Shown one piece after another: positions 2,677 through 49,060 of a stretch of DNA of 64,000 bases. A program made the translations under genes and the position numbers. The notes under the pieces were generated by a model. The model was not told the DNA's origin. It saw only the letters and a program-made list of their open reading frames with translations, and did not search any database. Position 1 is the stretch's first letter, and each line of letters starts with the position of its first letter. The DNA is from Megasphaera stantonii (GTDB lineage: Bacteria > Bacillota > Negativicutes > Veillonellales > Megasphaeraceae). Location: NCBI RefSeq assembly GCF_003367905.1, contig NZ_CP029462.1:1922001-1986000 (forward strand), written 5' to 3'.

Positions 2677-3831
2677 ATGAAAATCATGTTTTCCGCCGGC
2701 GAAGCGTCCGGCGATATGCACGGCGCCAACTTAGCGAAAGCCCTGCGGGAACTGGACCCCAGCGTAGAATTGCTGGGCATGGGCGGAGCCCGTATGGAAG
2801 AGGCCGGCGTAAACATCATATATGATATTAAAAATCTGGGATTTATCGGCGTAGGCGAAATTCTGCGCAAGATTCCCTTTTTCTTCCGTCTCCGCGATTT
2901 TCTCATCCGGAAGATGAAGGAAGAAAAACCGGATTTGCTGGTCTGCATCGATTATCCCGGCTTTAATATGCAGCTCATCAAGAAGGCCAAGGCTGCCGGC
3001 ATTACCGTCGTCTATTACATCTTGCCGACGATCTGGGCCTGGCACAAGAGCCGGGGTCATACGATTGCCAAGTATTCCGATTTGGCTATTTCCCTGTTTC
3101 CCTTTGAGGCGGACATGTATAAGGCCATGGGGACGAACGTCGTCTATGCGGGCCATCCCCTTCTCGACTCGGTCCATCCGTCTATGAGCCGCGGCGAAGC
3201 GGAGGCCTTTTTCGGCCTGGATGCCAGCAAGAAGACGATACTGCTCATGCCGGGCAGCCGGATGCAGGAAGTGCGGGGATTGCTGCCGGTCATGCTGGAA
3301 GGCGTACGGAAGATACAGGAAACGGTGCCCGATGTGCAGTGCCTCTTGCCGCGGGCTTCGACGATCGATACGTCGGTGCTGGAAGCAATCATAGGGGAGC
3401 ATGATGTTCCCGTCACGATCGGTGAGAATACCCATGTATACGATATGATGCAGGTCAGCACGGCGGCTATTGCCGCCTCGGGGACGGCGACGCTGGAAAC
3501 GGCCCTCATGAAGGTGCCTACCCTTTTGGTGTACCGCGTGGCGCCCCTTACGTACTGGCTGTCGAAAGTATTAGTTCACATAGAAAATATCGGCCTTCCC
3601 AATATCATCATGGGGCGGCGCATCATGCCGGAGCTGTGGCAGGACGACGTGACGCCTGAGGGCATCGCCAGTGTCGTCGCGCCGTTATTGCACGATGCCG
3701 GGCGCTGGGAACAGCTGCGGGACGCCATGGCCGACGTAGGCCGCACCATGGGCGAAGCCGGCTCCGTACGCCGCATCGCCCGGACGATATTACATTTTGC
3801 TAAGGAGAACCATCCGAATGAAGCAATATAA
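2677..3831 (+). CDS. lpxB: Lipid-A-disaccharide synthase LpxB
   Basis: This GT19 glycosyltransferase joins lipid X and UDP-diacylglucosamine into the lipid A disaccharide at the inner face of the membrane. The 384-residue product begins KIMFSAGEASGDMHGANL, the family signature, and shows VCIDYPGFNMQL, LPTIWAWHKSR, LLMPGSRMQEV and AASGTATLETALMKVPTLLVYR in the expected order. A GAGGAG ribosome site precedes the ATG. Its last 14 bases overlap the start of msbA, suggesting translational coupling. Confidence 0.96.
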   Translation: MKIMFSAGEASGDMHGANLAKALRELDPSVELLGMGGARMEEAGVNIIYDIKNLGFIGVGEILRKIPFFFRLRDFLIRKMKEEKPDLLVCIDYPGFNMQLIKKAKAAGITVVYYILPTIWAWHKSRGHTIAKYSDLAISLFPFEADMYKAMGTNVVYAGHPLLDSVHPSMSRGEAEAFFGLDASKKTILLMPGSRMQEVRGLLPVMLEGVRKIQETVPDVQCLLPRASTIDTSVLEAIIGEHDVPVTIGENTHVYDMMQVSTAAIAASGTATLETALMKVPTLLVYRVAPLTYWLSKVLVHIENIGLPNIIMGRRIMPELWQDDVTPEGIASVVAPLLHDAGRWEQLRDAMADVGRTMGEAGSVRRIARTILHFAKENHPNEAI

Positions 3832-5569
3832 CAGCTGGCAAAGCTATAAACGTTTGTTGAGGTTTATTACGCCGTATAAAAAACGCCTCGTCGTAGCCGT
3901 TATTTGTATGGCCTTTTCCGGCGCGAGCAACGTCGTCGTGCCGTGGCTGATTAAAGACGTTATCGATAAGGTATTGGCGAATAAGGATATTTATACGCTC
4001 AACCTCATCGTCATCAGTATTTTGGTATTGTTCCTCCTGCGCGGCTTTTTCTATTTCGGCGAACGCTACCTCATGAGCTTCGTCGGGCAGCGAATCGTAA
4101 ACGACATACGGGAGAAGCTGTACCGTCATCTGCAGATTTTATCGCTGTCGTATTTTGACCGCCGCAAGACCGGGAATATCATGAGCAACCTGACGAACGA
4201 TGTCACGGCGCTGCAGACGGCCATTGCCGGCAACCTGATATCCTTCGTGCAGGAATCGGTCATCCTCATCGGCTCCCTCGTTTCGATGCTGGTGCTGAAC
4301 TGGAAGCTGACCCTGCTGACCCTGGTCATCGTGCCCCTCGTCGTCGTGACAATCAACGTATTCGGCAAGCGATTGCGCCGGGCCGGCCACGAAGTGCAGG
4401 GCAAGATGGCCGATATTACGGCCCTTTTGGAAGAGGCCATTTCCGGCATCCGCATTATCCGTTCCTTTAACCGCGAGGCCTTTGAAATCAAACGGTTCGT
4501 CAAGCAGAACGACAACAACTTCTGGGCCCTCATGAAGACGACGCGGCTGACGGCTATGCTGACGCCGTTCATTCAGTTTTTTGCAGCCATCGCCATTACG
4601 GGGATTATCTGGTACGGCGGCATGAGCGTCATCGACGGCGATATGACGGCCGGCGAGCTCATCGCCTTCCTGATTTACGCCATCAACCTGGCCAATCCCG
4701 TGCGGCGCATCAGCGAAATATACGGCGATATCCAGCGGTCCCTGGCCGCTGCCGACCGGGTATTTGAGACCCTCGACACGGAACCGGACGTCAAAGAAAA
4801 GGAAGGCGCCGTCGAATTGCCGCCCGTACAGGGCCACATCGAATTCGACCACATTTCCTTTGCCTATGACGCGGAGCATCCGGCCCTTACGGATTTCAAC
4901 CTGTCCGTCAAGCCCGGCCAAATAGTAGCCCTCGTCGGGCCCAGCGGCGCCGGGAAATCGACGGTGGCCAACTTGCTGCCTCGTTTCTATGACGTGACGA
5001 GCGGCCGCCTGACCATCGACGGCGTCGACGTCCGCGACGTGACCTTTTCCTCACTGCGCCAGCAAATCGGCTTGGTGCCGCAGGAGACAATGCTGTTCAA
5101 CGCGACGGTCCGGGAAAATATCCTCTACGGCCGGCTGGACGCCAGCGACGACGAAATCGTAGCGGCTGCCAAGGCGGCCAACGCCCATGACTTCATCATG
5201 AGCCTGCCTCACGGCTATGAATCCATCGTCGGCGACCGGGGCAGCGCCTTGTCCGGCGGCCAGCGCCAGCGCATCGCCATTGCCCGGGCTATCTTGAAGA
5301 ATCCGCGGATTCTCATCCTCGACGAAGCGACGTCGGCCCTCGATACGGAAAGCGAAAAGATCGTGCAGGCCGCTCTGGACCGCCTAATGGAAGGCCGGAC
5401 GGCCGTCGTCATCGCCCATCGCCTGAGCACGGTGCGCGACGCCGACCATATCGTCGTCATCGACCACGGCCATATTGCCGAAGAAGGAACCCATGAAGAG
5501 CTGCTGGCTAAAAAGGGCTTGTATGCGAACTTGTATGCCGTGCAGTTTAAAGATAACGCAGAAGGATAA
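3818..5569 (+). CDS. msbA: Lipid A flippase MsbA (ABC exporter half-transporter)
   Basis: This 583-residue ABC exporter flips lipid A core across the inner membrane as a homodimer. Six membrane helices occupy roughly residues 1-320. The nucleotide-binding domain follows, with Walker A GPSGAGKST near residue 374, the LSGGQRQR signature near 477, Walker B ILILDEATSALD and an H-loop IAHRL. The ATG at 3818 has AAGGAG (3802-3807) at the right distance; an upstream in-frame start at 3797 has none. Between lpxB and waaA, the lipid A substrate is more likely than multidrug export. Confidence 0.9.
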   Translation: MKQYNSWQSYKRLLRFITPYKKRLVVAVICMAFSGASNVVVPWLIKDVIDKVLANKDIYTLNLIVISILVLFLLRGFFYFGERYLMSFVGQRIVNDIREKLYRHLQILSLSYFDRRKTGNIMSNLTNDVTALQTAIAGNLISFVQESVILIGSLVSMLVLNWKLTLLTLVIVPLVVVTINVFGKRLRRAGHEVQGKMADITALLEEAISGIRIIRSFNREAFEIKRFVKQNDNNFWALMKTTRLTAMLTPFIQFFAAIAITGIIWYGGMSVIDGDMTAGELIAFLIYAINLANPVRRISEIYGDIQRSLAAADRVFETLDTEPDVKEKEGAVELPPVQGHIEFDHISFAYDAEHPALTDFNLSVKPGQIVALVGPSGAGKSTVANLLPRFYDVTSGRLTIDGVDVRDVTFSSLRQQIGLVPQETMLFNATVRENILYGRLDASDDEIVAAAKAANAHDFIMSLPHGYESIVGDRGSALSGGQRQRIAIARAILKNPRILILDEATSALDTESEKIVQAALDRLMEGRTAVVIAHRLSTVRDADHIVVIDHGHIAEEGTHEELLAKKGLYANLYAVQFKDNAEG

Positions 5570-8830: not shown

Positions 8831-9679
8831 ATGATGGAACAAGTAAAACGCGTAGCCGTAGGAAATCAGACTGTCGGCGGAGACGGAAAGCTCTTCGTCA
8901 TGGCCGGCCCCTGCGTGCTGGAAGAAACGGAACGGGTGCTGAATATCGGCCGGGAAATGAAGCGGATCTGCGAATCCCTGGGGGTCACGTATATCTTCAA
9001 GGCCTCCTTTGATAAGGCGAACCGCTCGTCCTACACGTCCTTCCGCGGCCCGGGACTGACGGAAGGGCTGCGCACCTTGAAGTATATTAAAGAAGAATTA
9101 GGCGTGCCCGTCGTCAGCGACGTCCACTCCATCGAGCAGGTAGAGCCAGCGGCAGAGGTGCTGGATATCCTGCAGATTCCCGCTTTCCTCTGCCGGCAGA
9201 CGGACCTTCTGGAAGCGGCGGCGAAGACGGGCAAGTGCGTCAACGTAAAAAAAGGCCAGTTCATGGCCCCGGAAGACATGAAAAACGTCGTCGACAAGAT
9301 CACCTATATGGGCAATGAAAATATCATGCTGACAGAACGGGGATTCTGCCTGGGATACCATAACCTCGTCGTCGACATGCGCAGTTTCCCCATTATGCGC
9401 AGCTTCGGCTATCCCGTCGTGTTCGACGCGACGCACAGCGTCCAGCTGCCCGGCGGCGCCGGCACGAAATCGGCAGGCCTTCGCCAGTACATCGGCAACC
9501 TGGCCAGAGCGGCGGCCGGTTCGGGCATCGACGGCGTATTCATGGAAGTGCACGATAATCCTGCCGAAGCTTTATGCGACGGCCCGAATATGTTATACTT
9601 GTCGCAAGTAGAAGGCGTGCTGCGCGATATGATCGCCATCAACGACATTACCCGCAGAAGCGTCAGTACGGCGAAATAA
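8831..9679 (+). CDS. kdsA: KDO-8-phosphate synthase KdsA
   Basis: KdsA condenses phosphoenolpyruvate with arabinose 5-phosphate to KDO 8-phosphate. The 282-residue TIM-barrel enzyme shows MAGPCVLEETE near residue 20, FKASFDKANRSSYTSFRGPG, VNVKKGQFMAPEDM and FDATHSVQLPGG, all DAHP/KDO8P synthase motifs. ASFDKANRSS is typical of KDO8P synthase. Two consecutive ATG codons occur at 8831 and 8834; either may be used. It is followed at 20 bases by the isomerase that makes its sugar substrate. Confidence 0.96.
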   Translation: MMEQVKRVAVGNQTVGGDGKLFVMAGPCVLEETERVLNIGREMKRICESLGVTYIFKASFDKANRSSYTSFRGPGLTEGLRTLKYIKEELGVPVVSDVHSIEQVEPAAEVLDILQIPAFLCRQTDLLEAAAKTGKCVNVKKGQFMAPEDMKNVVDKITYMGNENIMLTERGFCLGYHNLVVDMRSFPIMRSFGYPVVFDATHSVQLPGGAGTKSAGLRQYIGNLARAAAGSGIDGVFMEVHDNPAEALCDGPNMLYLSQVEGVLRDMIAINDITRRSVSTAK

Positions 9680-9699
9680 TATACAGAGGTGACATCACG

Positions 9700-10671
9700 A
9701 TGGATATATTAGCAGAAGCAAGAGACGTACTCCAGCAAGAAGCAAAAGGCATTGAAAATCTCATTCCTACGCTGGATCAAAACTTCGTCAATGCCGTGCA
9801 TATGATTATGGAATCGAAAGGCCGCACCATTGTAACCGGCATGGGAAAATCGGGCCATATCGCCCGCAAGGTATCGGCGACGCTGTCGAGCACGGGCACG
9901 CCGTCTATTTTCCTCCACCCGGCCGAAGGCATTCACGGCGACTTGGGCATGGTGACGGGAGACGACGTCGTCCTGGCCTTTTCCAACAGCGGCGAAACCG
10001 TGGAAATTTTGAATATCCTGCCGTCGCTGAAACGAATCGGCGCTAAAATCATCGCCGTCGTAGGCAATCACAACTCGACGCTGGCTAAAAATTCCGACGT
10101 CATCCTCGACGCATCCGTCGAAAAGGAAGCCTGCCCCCTGGGCTTGGCGCCGACGACGAGCACGACGGTGGCCTTAGCCCTCGGCGACGCCCTGGCTATC
10201 GTCCTGCTGTCGTGTCATCACTTTACGAAAAATCAGTTTGCCATTTATCATCCCGGCGGAGCTCTCGGCCGCAAGCTGCTCATGACCGTTGAAAACGTCA
10301 TGCACAAGGGCAATGACAATCCGGTCATTTCCGAAGACAGCATCGTGCAGGACGCCTTGTTCATGATGACGGAAAAGGGATTGGGCGCCGTGTCGGTCGT
10401 CGACGAAGAAGGCCGCCTTGTCGGTCTCGTTACAGACGGCGACGTTCGCCGCGGCCTGGAAACGGGATCTAACTTCCTCCAGTGGCCTGTCGACGCCATG
10501 ATGACTAAAAATCCCCGTCAGATTACGAGCGATAAGCTGGCTGCCGAAGCCCTTCATATCATGGAAAAGAACCAGCCTCGTCCGATTACGGTACTGCCCG
10601 TCGTCGACGGCGACGGCAAGGCCGTCGGCATGGTTCACCTGACGGATTTGCTGCGGCAGGGAGTCGTCTGA
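9700..10671 (+). CDS. kdsD: D-arabinose-5-phosphate isomerase KdsD
   Basis: KdsD converts ribulose 5-phosphate to arabinose 5-phosphate for KdsA. The 323-residue protein has an N-terminal SIS domain (GMGKSGHIARKVSATLSSTG near residue 47, FSNSGETVEIL near residue 93) and two C-terminal CBS domains from about residue 200. The ATG at 9700 follows AGAGGTGAC; the longer frame from 9574 would overlap kdsA and has no ribosome site. Its TGA overlaps the next ATG (TGATG), so kdsC is probably translated by coupling. Confidence 0.93.
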   Translation: MDILAEARDVLQQEAKGIENLIPTLDQNFVNAVHMIMESKGRTIVTGMGKSGHIARKVSATLSSTGTPSIFLHPAEGIHGDLGMVTGDDVVLAFSNSGETVEILNILPSLKRIGAKIIAVVGNHNSTLAKNSDVILDASVEKEACPLGLAPTTSTTVALALGDALAIVLLSCHHFTKNQFAIYHPGGALGRKLLMTVENVMHKGNDNPVISEDSIVQDALFMMTEKGLGAVSVVDEEGRLVGLVTDGDVRRGLETGSNFLQWPVDAMMTKNPRQITSDKLAAEALHIMEKNQPRPITVLPVVDGDGKAVGMVHLTDLLRQGVV

Positions 10672-39371: not shown

Positions 39372-39539
39372 AGATAGCTCCGTCCTTTACAATCGTTGAT
39401 TTTATTATAGAAAATGTAAGAATATTTGTATAGATATATGTGTTATGCGAGAAACTAATGCATTAAAAAGGAATAATGTGTATACTATAAGTATCATGGA
39501 TTACCAGAATGTATAATTTGAAATGAAAGAGGAATGACT

Positions 39540-41045
39540 ATGGCTAATAAAAATAGCGTAAATATTGGATTTGAAGAAAAAATTTGGAATGCAGCTTGTG
39601 TACTGCGCGGTAATATTGACGCGTCGGAATATAAATCTGTCGTATTAGGACTTATTTTTTTGAAATACATTTCTGATTGTTTTGAGAAAAAATATAATGA
39701 ATTGGTCGAAGAAGGTGCGGGATTCGAAGAAGACAGGGATGAATATATTTCGGAAAATATCTTCTTTGTTCCTGAAAACGCTCGTTGGAACGTCATTTCT
39801 GCGGCAGCCCACAAGGAAACAATCGGCGTCGTTATAGACGAAGCTATGAAAAGCATAGAAAAAGAGAATAAGAAGTTAAAAGGTATATTGCCTAAGAATT
39901 TTGCCCGTCCTGAATTGGATAAACGGCGTCTGGGCGATGTAGTAGATTTATTTTCCAATGTAAAAATGGTAGATTCTGGAAGTGAAAAAGATATTTTAGG
40001 CAGAACGTATGAATATTGCTTAGCAAAGTTTGCAGAGCAAGAAGGCAAATTGGCAGGGGAATTTTATACCCCCGCTTGCGTGGTAAAAACGTTGGTTGAA
40101 GTATTACAGCCGTTCAATGGACGCGTGTACGATCCTTGCTGTGGTTCGGGCGGCATGTTTGTCCAATCGGCAAAATTTATCGAAAACCATGGCGGGAATA
40201 TTAATAAAATATCTGTCTACGGACAGGATTCCAATCCGACGACATGGAAAATGGCGCAGATGAATTTAGCTATTCGCGGCATCGAAGCGGATTTAGGAAG
40301 ATTTAGTGCAGATACGTTTTTTAACGACTGCCACCCGCAGTTAAAAGCGGATTTTATAATGGCAAATCCTCCCTTTAATCTTTCCGATTGGGGCGTTGAT
40401 AAGTTGCGTGACGACGTTCGCTGGAAATACGGCGTGCCGCCGGCAGGAAACGCTAACTTTGCCTGGCTTCAGCACATGATTTGGCATTTAGCGCCTAACG
40501 GCCGTATCGGTATGGTATTGGCAAACGGCTCGTTATCCTCTCAATCTGGCGGCGAAGGAGAAATCCGGAAACGGATCATTGAAGACGACTTAGTAGATTG
40601 TATAGTCGCCATGCCGGGACAGCTGTTTTATACGACGCAGATTCCCGTATCTTTATGGTTTCTATCTAAAAACAAGAAACAAAAAGGAAAAACCCTGTTT
40701 ATCGATGCCAGAGATATGGGGAGCTTAGTTACAAGAAAACTTCGGGAATTGGATGATGCCAAGGATATCAAAAAGATTGCCAATACGTATCATGCCTTTG
40801 TCGACGGTACGTTGGAGGATGAAAAGGGATTTTGTGCTGTCGTAACGACGGAGGATATTGCGAAGCAAGATTATATTTTGACGCCTGGACGGTATGTAGG
40901 CATTAAAGAGCTGGAAGAAGATACAGAACCGTTTGAAGAAAAAATGGCGCGTCTTACGACAGAATTGTCTGGACTATTTAAAGAATCCCATAGATTAGAG
41001 GAAGAGATTAAGAAACAATTAGGAGCGATTGGATATGATATATGA
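39540..41045 (+). CDS. hsdM: Type I restriction-modification methyltransferase HsdM
   Basis: HsdM methylates adenine at the site chosen by HsdS. The 501-residue protein has an N-terminal HsdM_N helical domain (WNAACVLRGNIDASEYKSVVLGLIFLKYISD). It has the AdoMet motif DPCCGSGGMFVQSAKF near residue 200, the catalytic NPPF (MANPPFNLSDW) near residue 275 and a C-terminal coiled coil. The ATG at 39540 has GAAAGAGG seven bases upstream; the earlier ATG at 39534 is too close. Codon use is visibly AT-richer than the LPS and fab genes, suggesting transfer. Confidence 0.96.
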   Translation: MANKNSVNIGFEEKIWNAACVLRGNIDASEYKSVVLGLIFLKYISDCFEKKYNELVEEGAGFEEDRDEYISENIFFVPENARWNVISAAAHKETIGVVIDEAMKSIEKENKKLKGILPKNFARPELDKRRLGDVVDLFSNVKMVDSGSEKDILGRTYEYCLAKFAEQEGKLAGEFYTPACVVKTLVEVLQPFNGRVYDPCCGSGGMFVQSAKFIENHGGNINKISVYGQDSNPTTWKMAQMNLAIRGIEADLGRFSADTFFNDCHPQLKADFIMANPPFNLSDWGVDKLRDDVRWKYGVPPAGNANFAWLQHMIWHLAPNGRIGMVLANGSLSSQSGGEGEIRKRIIEDDLVDCIVAMPGQLFYTTQIPVSLWFLSKNKKQKGKTLFIDARDMGSLVTRKLRELDDAKDIKKIANTYHAFVDGTLEDEKGFCAVVTTEDIAKQDYILTPGRYVGIKELEEDTEPFEEKMARLTTELSGLFKESHRLEEEIKKQLGAIGYDI

Positions 41046-41089: not shown

Positions 41090-42280
41090 TTGCGATTAAA
41101 AGATGTTTGTGAAATAAATAAAAGAACATATTCTGTTAAGGAAAAGTGGTCAGTAATTTATTACCTTGATACTCAAAATATTAATAAAGGTCAAATTAAT
41201 GAAGTAAAGAGATATAATACGGAATGGGAAAAAATACCAAGTCGGGCAAAACGCAAAGTGAGTAAAAATGACATTCTGTATTCAATGGTAAGACCAAATC
41301 AACAACATTATGGAATCATTCAATCAGAAAAAGAAAATTTTCTGGTTTCAACAGGATTTGCTGTAATTACTGTGAATGAAAATATAGCTGATCCCTATTT
41401 TATTTATTATTTTCTTACACAAGCGCAAGTTATAGAGTATTTACAAAATATTGCAGAACAAAGTACTTCAACGTATCCTGCAATTAGACCTTCAGATATT
41501 GAAGAACTTGCAATAGATTTGCCTGATTTAGAAAAACAAAAGAGAATAGGTAAGTTTTTGAGATCTATTGATGAAACAATAAATGTAAAGAAAAACATAA
41601 ACGATAATTTACAGCAACAAGCACAGGCTCTATACAAGTCATGTTTTGTTGATTTTGATCCATATGATGGAATAATGCCTTCCGATTGGATTATTGGTAC
41701 CGTTGACGATCTTGCAAAAGAAATTGTATGTGGTAAAACGCCATCAACGAAGATCTCCGAGTATTATGGATCAGAAATTCCGTTTATTACGATTCCTGAT
41801 ATGCACGGAAAAATTTATGTCATGACAACAGAACGATACCTGTCAATGTATGGAGCAAATTCTCAACCCAAAAAGACTTTGCCTAAAAATTCCATTTGCG
41901 TTAGCTGTATTGGTACAGCAGGTCTTGTCTCGCTTGTGGCATCCGAAAGTCAGACAAACCAGCAGATAAACTCTATAATCCCCAAAGATGATTATTCCCC
42001 GTATTACATATATCTGTTGATGCGAACGCTTTCAGAAGTTATAAATAAATTGGGACAAGGCGGTAGCACTATTGTAAATCTTAATAAGGCACAGTTTGGA
42101 AAAATCCAGGTGATGATTCCAACGGTTGCTTCTATGAGAAAATTTGATAAAACAGTTTCTCCTTTATTTTCGGTGATTCTTGAAAATCAAAAGGAAAATA
42201 TTTATCTGTCATCACTGCGAGATACCCTTCTTCCTCGATTGATGTCCGGCGAGCTGGATGTCTCTGACATCCAGCTCTAA
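41090..42280 (+). CDS. hsdS: Type I specificity subunit HsdS (expressed copy)
   Basis: HsdS holds two target-recognition domains and directs HsdM and HsdR. The 396-residue protein starts at TTG 41090, eight bases after AAGGAG. TRD1 covers about residues 1-150, followed by a central coiled coil (IDETINVKKNINDNLQQQA), TRD2 (about 190-360) and the terminal coiled coil ending DVSDIQL. The 12-base recombination core AACGATAATTTA (41600) is in frame as NDNL in the central coil. A second core in opposite orientation follows the stop. TRD2 can therefore be swapped by inversion. Confidence 0.93.
   Translation: MRLKDVCEINKRTYSVKEKWSVIYYLDTQNINKGQINEVKRYNTEWEKIPSRAKRKVSKNDILYSMVRPNQQHYGIIQSEKENFLVSTGFAVITVNENIADPYFIYYFLTQAQVIEYLQNIAEQSTSTYPAIRPSDIEELAIDLPDLEKQKRIGKFLRSIDETINVKKNINDNLQQQAQALYKSCFVDFDPYDGIMPSDWIIGTVDDLAKEIVCGKTPSTKISEYYGSEIPFITIPDMHGKIYVMTTERYLSMYGANSQPKKTLPKNSICVSCIGTAGLVSLVASESQTNQQINSIIPKDDYSPYYIYLLMRTLSEVINKLGQGGSTIVNLNKAQFGKIQVMIPTVASMRKFDKTVSPLFSVILENQKENIYLSSLRDTLLPRLMSGELDVSDIQL
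41599..41622 (+). repeat. Inversion site A in hsdS central region
   Basis: This 24-base sequence starting AAACGATAATTTACAG matches the inverted copy at 44893-44916 with one mismatch. It holds the 12-base core AACGATAATTTA shared by all four sites. Confidence 0.85.
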
Positions 42281-42297
42281 GCCGCTAAATTATCGTT
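42269..42297 (-). repeat. Inversion site B after the hsdS stop
   Basis: This 29-base sequence beginning in the last codons of hsdS is a perfect inverted copy of 44224-44252. The 12-base core lies at 42286-42297 in minus orientation. Confidence 0.88.
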
Positions 42298-42326
42298 AAT
42301 CTTACGTGACATAAAAGGAGTTTGAA

Positions 42327-42593
42327 GTGAAATCAGAAAATAGTGAACTAGATCTTTCAAATGCCCATAAATATGCATTTCAAAATAAGCCGTATCTTTT
42401 ACATGACAGTATATGTGGCTGTTACCACTGTTTAAAAATTTTTTCTCCCATTGAAATTACTAGGTATGCAGATGATTATGGTATAGGTACAGCTATATGC
42501 CCTTATTACGGTGTGGATGCTGTTATTGGAGAAAGTTCTGGACTACCTATTACTAAAGAGTTTTTAGAAAAAATGCATAATAAGTGGTTTTGA
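42327..42593 (+). CDS. Small zinc-ribbon-like protein of unknown function
   Basis: This 88-residue protein starts at GTG 42327, seven bases after AAAGGAG. It belongs to a recognisable family of small cytoplasmic proteins with a CxxC pair early (GCYHCLKIF near residue 33) and a CPYCG pair later. Here the second pair reads CPYYG (near residue 55), so one of the four expected zinc ligands is Tyr. The conserved tail ITKEFLEKMHNKWF is intact. It lies within the invertible segment between hsdS and the recombinase. The function is unknown. Confidence 0.7.
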   Translation: MKSENSELDLSNAHKYAFQNKPYLLHDSICGCYHCLKIFSPIEITRYADDYGIGTAICPYYGVDAVIGESSGLPITKEFLEKMHNKWF

Positions 42594-42681
42594 TGTAAAA
42601 AATCTCTCAACAGCGGTGAGAGAATTAGTAAAAGAACTGCCGCTGCTCGTCGTTCTCTTATTACTGAAAGGAGAAATGGCG

Positions 42682-43665
42682 ATGAAAGAACAACTGATTT
42701 GCGAGATTCAGCAGAAGATGTTGCCCTATCTTAATAACGAACAATTACTTCAGCTAAAAATCGTATTGGATCAAGCATTTTACGGAGTAACCGTCAATAC
42801 AGAAGAAATAAGAGCGGCAGTAGACGAATGCAATACCGTAGAGTTATTTGTTTCCGCTAAACGTATTGAAGGATGTTCGGAAAAAACATTGACATATTAT
42901 AGTAAGACGATTGACGTTATGCTGGAAACTATCGGCAAAACGGCGCAGCAAATAACGACAGAAGATTTGCGGAACTATTTGATTACGTATCAAGTGGAGA
43001 GAGGCTCCAGCAAGGTTACGATTGACAATATTCGCCGTATTTTATCAAGCTTTTTTTCGTGGCTGGAAGACGAAGATTATATAATTAAAAGCCCTATCCG
43101 ACGGATTCATAAGGTGAAAACGGCAAAAATTGTCAAAGACACGTATAGCGATGAAGCGCTGGAGCTTATGCGTGATAACTGTACGAATCTACGGGATTTA
43201 GCTCTTGTCGATTTATTGGCATCGTCGGGAATGCGTGTAGGCGAGTTAGTGTTGCTGAATCGGGACGATATAGATTTTAATGAACGGGAATGTGTCGTTT
43301 GCGGAAAGGGAAATAAAGAACGGTTAGTATATTTTGACGCAAGGACGAAAATTCATTTGCAAAATTATTTGCAAAGTCGGACAGACACAAATCCTGCATT
43401 ATTTGTGTCTTTGAAAATACCTCATAATCGCCTTATGATCGGCGGTGTAGAAGCCTGCTTGAGACGATTAGGACAACGAATACGCCTTACAAAGGTGCAT
43501 CCTCATAAATTCCGGCGTACCTTTGCGACGACGGCTATTGATAAAGGGATGCCCATAGAGCAAGTACAACACTTGCTAGGACATCAGAAAATTGATACGA
43601 CGCTGCATTATGCTATGGTGAAACAACAGAATGTAAAGTTAGCACATAGAAAGTATATTGGGTAG
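42682..43665 (+). CDS. Tyrosine recombinase (XerC/D-like), likely hsdS invertase
   Basis: The 327-residue protein has an N-terminal SAM-like core-binding domain (KRIEGCSEKTLTYYSKTID, about residues 55-135). The catalytic domain shows Arg in SSGMRVGELVLLNRDDID near residue 181, Lys in CGKGNKERL, HKFRRTFAT near 273, LLGHQKIDTTLHYA with His and nucleophile Tyr near 309. The ATG at 42682 has AAAGGAG eight bases upstream; 42676 is too close. It sits between hsdS copies flanked by inverted repeats, as in other inverting type I systems, which argues against a phage integrase. Confidence 0.88.
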   Translation: MKEQLICEIQQKMLPYLNNEQLLQLKIVLDQAFYGVTVNTEEIRAAVDECNTVELFVSAKRIEGCSEKTLTYYSKTIDVMLETIGKTAQQITTEDLRNYLITYQVERGSSKVTIDNIRRILSSFFSWLEDEDYIIKSPIRRIHKVKTAKIVKDTYSDEALELMRDNCTNLRDLALVDLLASSGMRVGELVLLNRDDIDFNERECVVCGKGNKERLVYFDARTKIHLQNYLQSRTDTNPALFVSLKIPHNRLMIGGVEACLRRLGQRIRLTKVHPHKFRRTFATTAIDKGMPIEQVQHLLGHQKIDTTLHYAMVKQQNVKLAHRKYIG

Positions 43666-43680
43666 AAAGGGTAAAGAAAT

Positions 43681-44244
43681 ATGGAAAAGGCAAAGAGAAT
43701 TTTAAAGCCGTTAGGAGAAGTCACCGAATTTATGACAAAAGGAATTGCTCCTAAATATACTGAGAATGAGACAGAAAATACGATTAAGGTATTAAATCAA
43801 CGATGCAATCGTAATTTTCAAATATCATATAAAGAGGCGCGTTTACATGATAAATCTTTAAGGAAAGTTTCTGAAGAAAAACTATTGAAACCTGGAGACG
43901 TGCTTATTAACTCTACTGGTACTGGGACAGCTGGTCGTGTAGCTCAAGTTTGGCAAATTCCGGCTACTACTACGTTTGATGGTCATATGATTTTATTAAG
44001 GCCTACGAAAGAAATAGATCCGTTATACTATGGGTATGCTATTAAAGCACAACAAAAACAAATAGAGTCATTGGCAGAAGGGTCTACAGGACAAACAGAA
44101 ATTAATCGAAAAAGATTGCAGGAAGAAATTATAATTAATTTTCCAATAAATATAAGTAAACAACGAAAAGTTGGAATGATTTTATTTAATATTGATAAAA
44201 GAATTAAGATAAACGCTGCAATAAACGATAATTTAGCGGCTTAG
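43681..44244 (+). pseudogene. Alternative HsdS N-terminal half (TRD1'), truncated at recombination core
   Basis: This 187-residue reading frame with its own start codon encodes a first target-recognition domain (GEVTEFMTKGIAPKY.., GDVLINSTGTGTAGRVAQVW, GHMILLRPTK) and the central coil DKRIKINAAINDNL. It is then closed by AA-stop where a complete hsdS would continue QQQA. The 12-base core at 44224 is in frame at NDNL. Inversion of the neighbouring cassette (44241-44919) would restore a full-length protein of about 405 residues. It may be translated as a half subunit now. Confidence 0.82.
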
Positions 44245-44252
44245 AGCTGGAT
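44224..44252 (+). repeat. Inversion site C at the end of TRD1'
   Basis: Perfect 29-base inverted partner of site B (42269-42297). Core AACGATAATTTA at 44224-44235 in plus orientation; the arms also encode the shared hsdS 3' end on the minus strand. Confidence 0.88.
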
Positions 44253-44921
44253 AGCGGAGACATCAATTTTGCCTGACATTAACTTTGGAAGGAGCTCATC
44301 TCGAATAGATGCAAGCCTGTTGTTTTCTTCCTGATTCGAGACAATGGCAGCCGCCATGGGTGCAATGAGAGCATTAAAGCAATCCAAAGTCTCCTTATCA
44401 GGCAAAAGGAGTTCGAGCGCCTTTACGCGATCTCTGGGCAACTCTGTCTGACCAGTGCTTCCTATATGAAGCGATTCAATTTCTTTTTCATGTTGGGTTC
44501 CCCACAACCCAATATAGAAAATCATACTTTCTGTTGCTGGCCGGACAATCGTAACATGAGAATCAACAGTAAGATTATGCGGCTGAAACCAAACCTGCGC
44601 TGCTCTCCCCAAAGTGCCATTGCCAGTTGAGTTAATTAGCAAATCTCCAAATCGAAGCCACTTATCATTGATGACTTTCGGCCTATGGGCTCGCGCAAAA
44701 GAAAGATCAATCATGTGATTGCGAATGCACTTCTGATTAATTACAATTTGGTCGGTATCATCCGCATATTTTGGAGTTATACCTCGACTTAACAGTGATG
44801 TAATGTCTTCTAAAGTGACATTCTCCCATTTGTCCGGTGCAGTGCCCCCGAATGGAATATAATCAACAAACCATGATCTAAAAATCGCAACGGCTTGCTG
44901 CTGTAAATTATCGTTTTTCTC
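44241..44921 (-). pseudogene. Silent HsdS C-terminal half cassette (TRD2') in inverted orientation
   Basis: The minus strand is open from a stop at 44922-44924 through E-K-N-D-N-L-Q-Q-Q-A, then a complete second recognition domain (SLLSRGITPKY.., GDLLINSTGNGTLGRAAQVW, HVTIVRPATE, STGQTELPRDR) and the terminal coil ending DVSAIQL. There is no start codon upstream of the core, so it cannot be expressed in place. It becomes the C-terminal half of an HsdS only after inversion. Its recognition domain belongs to the same TRD type as TRD1' at 43681. Confidence 0.85.
44893..44916 (-). repeat. Inversion site D at the start of the silent cassette
   Basis: 24-base partner of site A in opposite orientation with one mismatch. 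The 12-base core is at 44904-44915, in frame with the silent cassette (NDNL). Confidence 0.85.
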
Positions 44922-48102: not shown

Positions 48103-48130
48103 GTAAATACAGGTATGTGGAGTGAAACGT

Positions 48131-49060
48131 ATGGCAATACCGAAATATAATGAATTTATGCCGACTATCATAACGTGCTTGAGTGATGGAAATAGGCATA
48201 CGACAAAAGAATTAATAACATTTTGCGCCAATGCATTTCAACTTACTGAAGAGGAACGGCAACGCCGATTACCTACGGGGCGTCAGTCTGTATTGGCAAA
48301 TCGCGTAGGTTGGGCGAAAACATATTTGAAAAAAGCCGGGCTCATTGAGAATCCAGTAAGGTCAACATATTGCCTGACCCAGCGTGGAAAAGAGGCTTAT
48401 CAACAAGGCGTAGAGAATATTACAGTAGAATATTTACGGCGATTTGACTCATTTAATGCATTTATCAGTAACGATACAACGCAAAATATAGTAGTAAGTA
48501 ATGACAATACCAATGATGAAGAAATAACTAAGAGCCCGCAAGAAATATTGGAAAATGCAATTAAGCAAATAAATCACTCATTGGCGGATGAATTATTAAC
48601 GGAAATTATGAAGATTTCTTCATCAGATTTCGAGAGTTTAGTAGTTCGGCTATTAATTAAAATGGGGTATGGTTCCATGCAGCTAAATGCCAATGCCGTA
48701 ACTAAAAAATCTGGTGATGAAGGGATTGACGGTATCGTGACGGCAGACAAGTTTGGATTTGATTCTATCTATATTCAAGCTAAAAAATGGAATACAGATA
48801 CAGTTGTCAGTCGTCCGGAAATTCAAAAATTTTTAGGAGCTCTCGTTGGACAGGGCGCAACAAAAGGCGTATTTATTACGACGGCAAAATTTTCTTCTGG
48901 AGCTTATGAATATGCTAAAAAACAGCTTAATACAAAAATCGTACTCATCGACGGCGTTCGCTTGACTAATTTGATGATAGAGTATAACCTTGGTGTTTCT
49001 GTTATTGAGTCGTATGAAATAAAGCGAATAGATTACGATTTCTTTAATGAAGATATTTAA
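48131..49060 (+). CDS. mrr: Mrr-family restriction endonuclease
   Basis: The 309-residue protein has an N-terminal winged-helix Mrr_N domain (PTIITCLSDGNRHTTKELI.., TYCLTQRGKEAYQQG) and a C-terminal Mrr catalytic domain. The catalytic domain shows DFESLVVRLLIKMGYG near residue 160, the Asp in SGDEGIDGIV near 197 and IYIQAKKW near 214, the D-QxK motif. Mrr enzymes cut modified DNA, so its presence 28 bases after hsdR means self-methylation must be tolerated. It appears to be in the same operon as hsdR. Confidence 0.88.
   Translation: MAIPKYNEFMPTIITCLSDGNRHTTKELITFCANAFQLTEEERQRRLPTGRQSVLANRVGWAKTYLKKAGLIENPVRSTYCLTQRGKEAYQQGVENITVEYLRRFDSFNAFISNDTTQNIVVSNDNTNDEEITKSPQEILENAIKQINHSLADELLTEIMKISSSDFESLVVRLLIKMGYGSMQLNANAVTKKSGDEGIDGIVTADKFGFDSIYIQAKKWNTDTVVSRPEIQKFLGALVGQGATKGVFITTAKFSSGAYEYAKKQLNTKIVLIDGVRLTNLMIEYNLGVSVIESYEIKRIDYDFFNEDI

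Follow-up and report, generated by a model that had tools for sequence, protein, structure and literature searches.

A two-acceptor, two-cassette type I restriction-modification locus of Megasphaera stantonii, very probably shuffled by its own recombinase among four HsdS subunits

The closest known system to the locus described here is SsuCC20p of Streptococcus suis and S. agalactiae (PMC10790761). In S. suis, switching at the 14-bp repeats of SsuCC20p, TAAATCATCATTTA, is proven to depend on xerD, both acceptors are transcribed and methylating, and only conformations with a single complete hsdS were seen in assemblies, long reads, and PCR (PMC10790761). Two pneumococcal systems are organized differently. 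The SpnIII/ivr/cod locus of S. pneumoniae (PsrA/CreX) carries repeats in three pairs of unequal length (15, 85, and about 298-333 bp) and has six alleles, and the hsdM-proximal hsdS alone is active (PMC4948785, PMC7096588). The SpnIV/tvr locus (TvrR) has direct repeats and keeps all its modules on one strand, its circular intermediates have been shown, and it has TvrA/T regulators (PMC6265443). A search of REBASE for inverting hsdS loci demanded repeats of at least 20 bp, and its main text names no Megasphaera or similar locus (PMC7394358).

The window analyzed here is a 64,000-nucleotide stretch of the Megasphaera stantonii genome (contig NZ_CP029462.1, positions 1,922,001 to 1,986,000), and the coordinates of its features are positions within it. 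A first-pass annotation had proposed a phase-variable type I specificity locus with an Xer-like recombinase. That core idea is borne out by the anatomy of the locus, by about 75 four-site relatives, and by SsuCC20p, but the switching by single inversions that came with it is not. We consider it very likely that this is a two-acceptor, two-cassette locus shuffled by its recombinase among four HsdS, through a coordinated double exchange or excision and re-insertion rather than through one inversion. The anatomy was established directly and comprises the following features:

39534 to 41045, plus strand: hsdM, type I DNA methyltransferase subunit, 503 aa (Pfam N6_Mtase 6e-108, HsdM_N 3e-28)
41090 to 42280, plus strand: hsdS as sequenced, TRD1a (fixed N-terminal half, acceptor 1) joined to TRD2a, 396 aa, TTG start
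41598 to 41611, plus strand: site A, TAAACGATAATTTA, at the TRD1a/TRD2a joint; its 12-mer starts at 41600
41612 to 42285, plus strand: cassette TRD2a, forward orientation
42286 to 42299, minus strand: site B, non-coding, left arm TTAA, not TAAA, just past the hsdS stop at 42278-42280
42327 to 42593, plus strand: small CxxC-containing ORF, 88 aa, between site B and the recombinase
42676 to 43665, plus strand: XerA-like tyrosine recombinase, start ATG at 42676 or 42682, R/K/HxxR/H/Y motifs intact
43681 to 44244, plus strand: TRD1b, second N-terminal half-hsdS (acceptor 2), 187 aa (Methylase_S 6e-11)
44222 to 44235, plus strand: site C, TAAACGATAATTTA; its 12-mer starts at 44224
44233 to 44244, plus strand: L-A-A-stop tail of the TRD1b half, a candidate ssrA-like degron coded on the back of the cassette 3' end
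44241 to 44903, minus strand: cassette TRD2d, reversed (family HMM 157 bits)
44904 to 44917, minus strand: site D, left arm AAAA, not TAAA
45001 to 48102, plus strand: hsdR, type I restriction subunit, 1033 aa (NCBIfam hsdR 599 bits)

By Pfam and NCBIfam, hsdM and hsdR stand together with the hsdS modules in a complete type I restriction-modification operon, with the gene order hsdM, hsdS, 88-aa ORF, XerA-like recombinase, half hsdS, reversed hsdS half, hsdR, and mrr. The operon lies in a low-GC stretch (0.32-0.45) compared with 0.50-0.57 on both flanks, and the same low-GC island holds a gene for an Mrr-type restriction endonuclease at 48122-49060, directly 3' of hsdR. The sequenced hsdS encodes two Methylase_S domains with site A between them and matches the PDB HsdS structure 1yf2 (1e-39). 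TRD1b has its own ATG with a purine-rich stretch upstream, a possible ribosome site, and is truncated in the sequenced state. TRD2d lacks its own start and is coding only once joined to an N-terminal half; a Pfam search with TRD2d alone gave no match, and TRD1b and TRD2d are 44% identical across 137 aa. The sequenced assembly thus contains two N-terminal TRD acceptors, two C-terminal TRD cassettes, and exactly one complete hsdS. The recombinase, which the first-pass annotation had located inside the locus, lies between sites B and C, has its full set of catalytic motifs, and scores 6e-32 against Pfam Phage_integrase and 238 bits against NCBIfam XerA (cut-off 220). The 88-aa ORF has no match in Pfam or NCBIfam, weakly resembles Priestia plasmid genes annotated as 'cytoplasmic protein', and has no counterpart in any of the other loci of the recombinase family examined. 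Just 5' of the recombinase, a hairpin followed by a T run lies on the minus strand at 42600-42625, although the overall terminator scan is at chance level; the attenuator of the pneumococcal tvr locus sits at a comparable place. Promoter and terminator scans of the locus gave no more than chance level, and Rfam gave no match near the recombinase.

The four recombination sites share a 12-mer, AACGATAATTTA, whose positions and strands agree with those already annotated: 41600 (plus), 42286 (minus), 44224 (plus), and 44904 (minus). The order of the copies is therefore +,-,+,-, alternating with two per strand. A genome-wide count found exactly four exact copies in all 2,652,760 bases, every one at the hsdS locus. 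With one mismatch permitted, the matches in the window are still four, compared with a mean of 0.48 in shuffled sequence, and none of 100 shuffles reached four; moreover, AACGATAATTTA is the sole 12-mer in the window that occurs at least twice on each strand. A chance origin of the repeats is ruled out by the shuffles together with the whole-genome uniqueness. The general form of the site is TAAA-N6-TTTA, with the spacer CGATAA at this locus. Alignment reproduced the arm lengths previously reported: B and C share 29 identical bases starting at AACG, the longest perfect match at the locus, and A and D share 24 bases (41599-41622) with one mismatch. The reading frame N-D-N-L, also given in the first-pass annotation, holds at sites A, C, and D; site B is non-coding and directly follows the hsdS stop.

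In-silico rearrangement of the real locus sequence yields four complete HsdS proteins, all in frame: TRD1a-TRD2a, as sequenced, with 396 aa, TRD1a-TRD2d with 394, TRD1b-TRD2a with 407, and TRD1b-TRD2d with 405. The products of single inversions are less uniform. Inversion between A and D was expected to give a 394-residue HsdS with a new second half and inversion between A and B to truncate the protein, and both expectations match the computed, in-frame products, the latter being a TRD1a half of 176 aa that ends in NDNLAA. Inversion between A and B alone leaves no complete HsdS at all, inversion between C and D alone gives two, and inversion between A and D alone or B and C alone reverses the recombinase. 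One complete hsdS and the direction of the recombinase are both preserved by two routes, namely paired inversions, or an A x C excision with subsequent insertion at B x D. The first-pass annotation had also treated one hsdS as the expressed one. This view does not fit TRD1b, which has a start and possible ribosome site of its own, nor S. suis, where the second acceptor is transcribed and methylates (PMC10790761). TRD1b is probably a second, expressed acceptor, so that four HsdS are predicted and not two.

Relatives of the recombinase were found in 490 encoding stretches of GTDB genomes, of which the best 80 were analyzed; a further 23 occur in viral contigs, and within the window's own class 30 of 380 genomes carry one. 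The analyzed relatives sit nearly all in the gene order hsdM-S-xer-S-hsdR, and a four-site layout is common to about 75 related loci, with the +-+- order and the same arms recognized by pattern in 72. No other genome among 14 congeneric ones carries the recombinase, and in a plasmid search no related locus matched over most of the length of the query. Conservation of the sites was observed in a spacer test in which sites were picked by their arms and right flank only, ignoring the spacer. Within all 48 testable loci the spacer is identical among copies, two flagged loci being the same site read in reverse, whereas between different loci the spacers match 28% of the time. The variants CGATAA, CAATAA, TGATAA, CAAGAA, and CGAGAA alter the encoded residue, and the non-coding copies change along with the others. 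Because non-coding copies match too and the encoded residue varies, HsdS coding cannot account for spacer identity. From the biology of tyrosine recombinases, such a match within each locus is expected of a crossover region that needs identity. Six relatives (L115, L118, L122, L160, L168, and L173) have only direct-repeat sites (TAAATCAAAATTTG or CAAATCACAATTTG) with all hsdS parts on one strand, a tvr-like layout. Another, L034, carries cassettes at both acceptors in opposite orientation (3516-4135 and 9497-10116) that are 99.8% identical, and switching there would therefore leave the C-terminal TRD unchanged. The N-terminal TRD half at acceptor 2 of one locus can also match acceptor 1 of another at 95% identity (L056, 9006-9537, and L062, 6226-6757), and N-terminal halves therefore move between acceptors as well. 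The M. stantonii genome itself has a second type I region (C1:2528000-2540500) with two opposed HsdS genes, identified by Methylase_S matches, and inverted repeats of 75 nt (88%) and 69 nt (80%); this is possibly another rearranging hsdS locus.

The arrangement of the cassettes is strongly biased across the family. One cassette is forward and one reversed in 72 of 77 scored loci, with acceptor 1 joined to the forward cassette in 42 and acceptor 2 in 30, and the exceptions have both forward (three) or both reversed (two). The bias is significant over the 77 loci (Fisher p=1e-15) and persists after thinning at 85% recombinase identity (32 of 34 loci, p=1e-6). The recombinase points the same way as hsdM in 71 of the 74 loci with hsdM. 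These two biases indicate coordinated or direct-site exchange, with single-inversion products being rare, and together with the single-complete-hsdS forms of S. suis they speak against single inversions as the usual outcome. Loci L038 and L039 are more than 99.8% identical outside their cassettes, and one cassette is forward at acceptor 1 in one of them and reversed at acceptor 2 in the other; by its sequence, the pair is a natural recent rearrangement in which the direction of the recombinase was kept. Among 20 near-identical cassette pairs between loci, orientation is kept in 13 and changed in 7, but the exchange pathway is unreadable from these pairs because most come from different species.

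In the proposed mechanism, TRD1a behind hsdM and TRD1b behind the recombinase would serve as acceptors for the interchangeable C-terminal cassettes TRD2a and TRD2d. Each cassette would be bounded by TAAA-N6-TTTA sites, and the locus-encoded tyrosine recombinase would exchange strands within the spacer CGATAA. The normal state would hold exactly one complete hsdS beside a single truncated half, with the direction of the recombinase retained, and would be reached either by coordinated double exchange or by excision at the direct sites A/C followed by re-insertion at B/D. The resulting arrangement would decide which of the four complete HsdS the cell makes, and every form would confer a different methylation and restriction specificity. 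Activity in M. stantonii, the exchange pathway, and the actual specificities are what we infer from this design, and a single culture should then show up to four DNA-methylation patterns.

Simple independent inversions, with A/D producing TRD1a-TRD2d, A/B truncating the protein, and only the hsdM-proximal hsdS counting, fit the longer matching arms of A/D and B/C, and their products are in frame. PsrA of S. pneumoniae carries out inversions (PMC7096588), and relatives occur with no complete hsdS (L062, L099), with two (L049, L089, L097), or with a reversed recombinase (3 of 74 scored). Free inversion predicts all orientation combinations in about equal numbers, however, which is far from the 72 of 77 and 71 of 74 observed, and in S. 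suis such forms are missing from reads and PCR and the second acceptor is expressed (PMC10790761). We regard this explanation as unlikely. Still less probable is a frozen remnant, in which sites and halves persist although the recombinase has ceased to act at the locus. The genome is known in a single arrangement, no other genome among the 14 congeneric ones has the recombinase, and the imperfect left arm of site B and the AAAA of site D count against activity. On the other hand, the recombinase retains its catalytic motifs, every reading frame is intact, and B and C still match perfectly over 29 bp.

The choice between the two routes of the preferred reading, shuffling among four HsdS, is more evenly balanced. 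If the main route were excision of a 2.6-kb circle at the direct sites A/C and re-insertion at B/D, as in tvr, cassettes would switch acceptor unturned, without loss of the single complete hsdS or of the direction of the recombinase. Both states are frequent in relatives (42 versus 30), the same recombinase family includes loci with direct-repeat sites only, TvrR of pneumococcus uses this route (PMC6265443), and S. suis alleles A and E differ in exactly this way (PMC10790761). Cassette orientation has nevertheless changed between L038 and L039 and in other pairs, and S. suis allele H likewise needs a change of orientation (PMC10790761). Excision as the main route is thus a serious candidate to which we would give slightly less than an even chance. 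The S. suis authors noted that the mechanism of exchange is unsolved (PMC10790761), and the family-wide bias toward one complete hsdS makes it testable.

The truncated half may carry a signal of its own. TRD1b in the sequenced state ends in I-N-D-N-L-A-A-stop, and the tmRNA tag of the M. stantonii genome is AKEQNFALAA. Active ssrA-type tails are known to include LAA and LVA. The family provides 90 candidate truncated halves, of which 55 end in LAA and 10 in LVA, and 78 have a terminal Ala, compared with 9% terminal Ala and 1.1% AA for the other long ORFs in the same loci. Four loci (L046, L065, L074, and L091) are not taken as evidence for a degron, as their cassette stop falls 19 bases inside the stop of the half and overlapping reverse coding explains the terminal Ala; L116 is doubtful in the same way as L046. 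In 68 of 83 classified loci, both Ala codons lie outside the coding sequence of the cassette. The terminal -AA stays where the stop is displaced from the core (SAA in L028, QAA in L062, CAA in L170, TAA in L085) and where the cassette stop is about 200 bases off (L075, L084); judged from these tails, it goes with the stop codon of the half itself. Ala-Ala is encoded at flank positions 16, 18, and 19, and these positions are conserved, although the other flank type has different bases there. Such a tail is almost never found on the half-length HsdS of direct-repeat relatives. Some half tails end in Asp, Val, or Thr, not Ala. The tail might instead be conserved at the DNA level, as a recombination flank with shared stops. 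The third positions of the Ala codons vary little, being as conserved as other positions, which fits that explanation and makes the codon-level evidence weak. Among the papers of the literature library searched, none links HsdS halves to an ssrA-like tag. We propose only tentatively, and with rather more doubt than belief, that the -LAA/-LVA coded on the back of the cassette 3' end is a working ssrA-like degron that marks unpaired halves for ClpXP. If true, each cassette reversal would truncate a half and mark it for ClpXP at once, unpaired halves would be unable to poison HsdM or build a half-specificity enzyme, and the tail would represent a novel mechanism by which a DNA rearrangement clears its own by-products.

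Compared with the known systems, the locus shares with the inverting hsdS loci catalogued in REBASE (PMC7394358) and with hCom2 inverton group 145 (PMC11892184) type I hsdS genes, inverted repeats, and a wide distribution in gut Firmicutes. It has in common with SpnIII/ivr/cod a tyrosine recombinase in a type I locus, a short repeat (15 bp in SpnIII) at the TRD joint, and, as predicted here, inversions that change HsdS (PMC4948785, PMC7096588), but where SpnIII has several unequal repeat pairs, some of them long and homologous, it has one 12-14 bp site present four times. With SpnIV/tvr it would share recombinase-driven TRD shuffling and exchange at direct site copies (PMC6265443), but TRD2d lies on the opposite strand, unlike the one-strand modules with direct repeats only, and no TvrA/T-like regulators were found at the locus. 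Given the unequal repeat pairs of SpnIII and the direct repeats of SpnIV, neither is nearest in design. SsuCC20p, in contrast, likewise combines hsdM, hsdR, four TRDs, and an Xer-type recombinase between two hsdS regions, with two cassettes flanked by 14-bp TAAA-N6-TTTA repeats and a single complete hsdS, although here the left arms of B and D are imperfect. The spacers differ (CGATAA here, TCATCA in SsuCC20p), as do the TRDs, and the M. stantonii locus is chromosomal, in a low-GC island beside an Mrr gene, whereas SsuCC20p lies in a prophage region. The SsuCC20p repeat TAAATCATCATTTA is also the site found in relatives L109 and L112, and the M. stantonii recombinase is about 65% identical to that of L109. 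The four-site design, with crossover spacers specific to each locus, is found across gut Firmicutes and Negativicutes. The design is thus already known from SsuCC20p of S. suis, and the M. stantonii locus adds a member in an unrelated bacterium, which would extend a proven streptococcal epigenetic switch to an unrelated gut-type organism.
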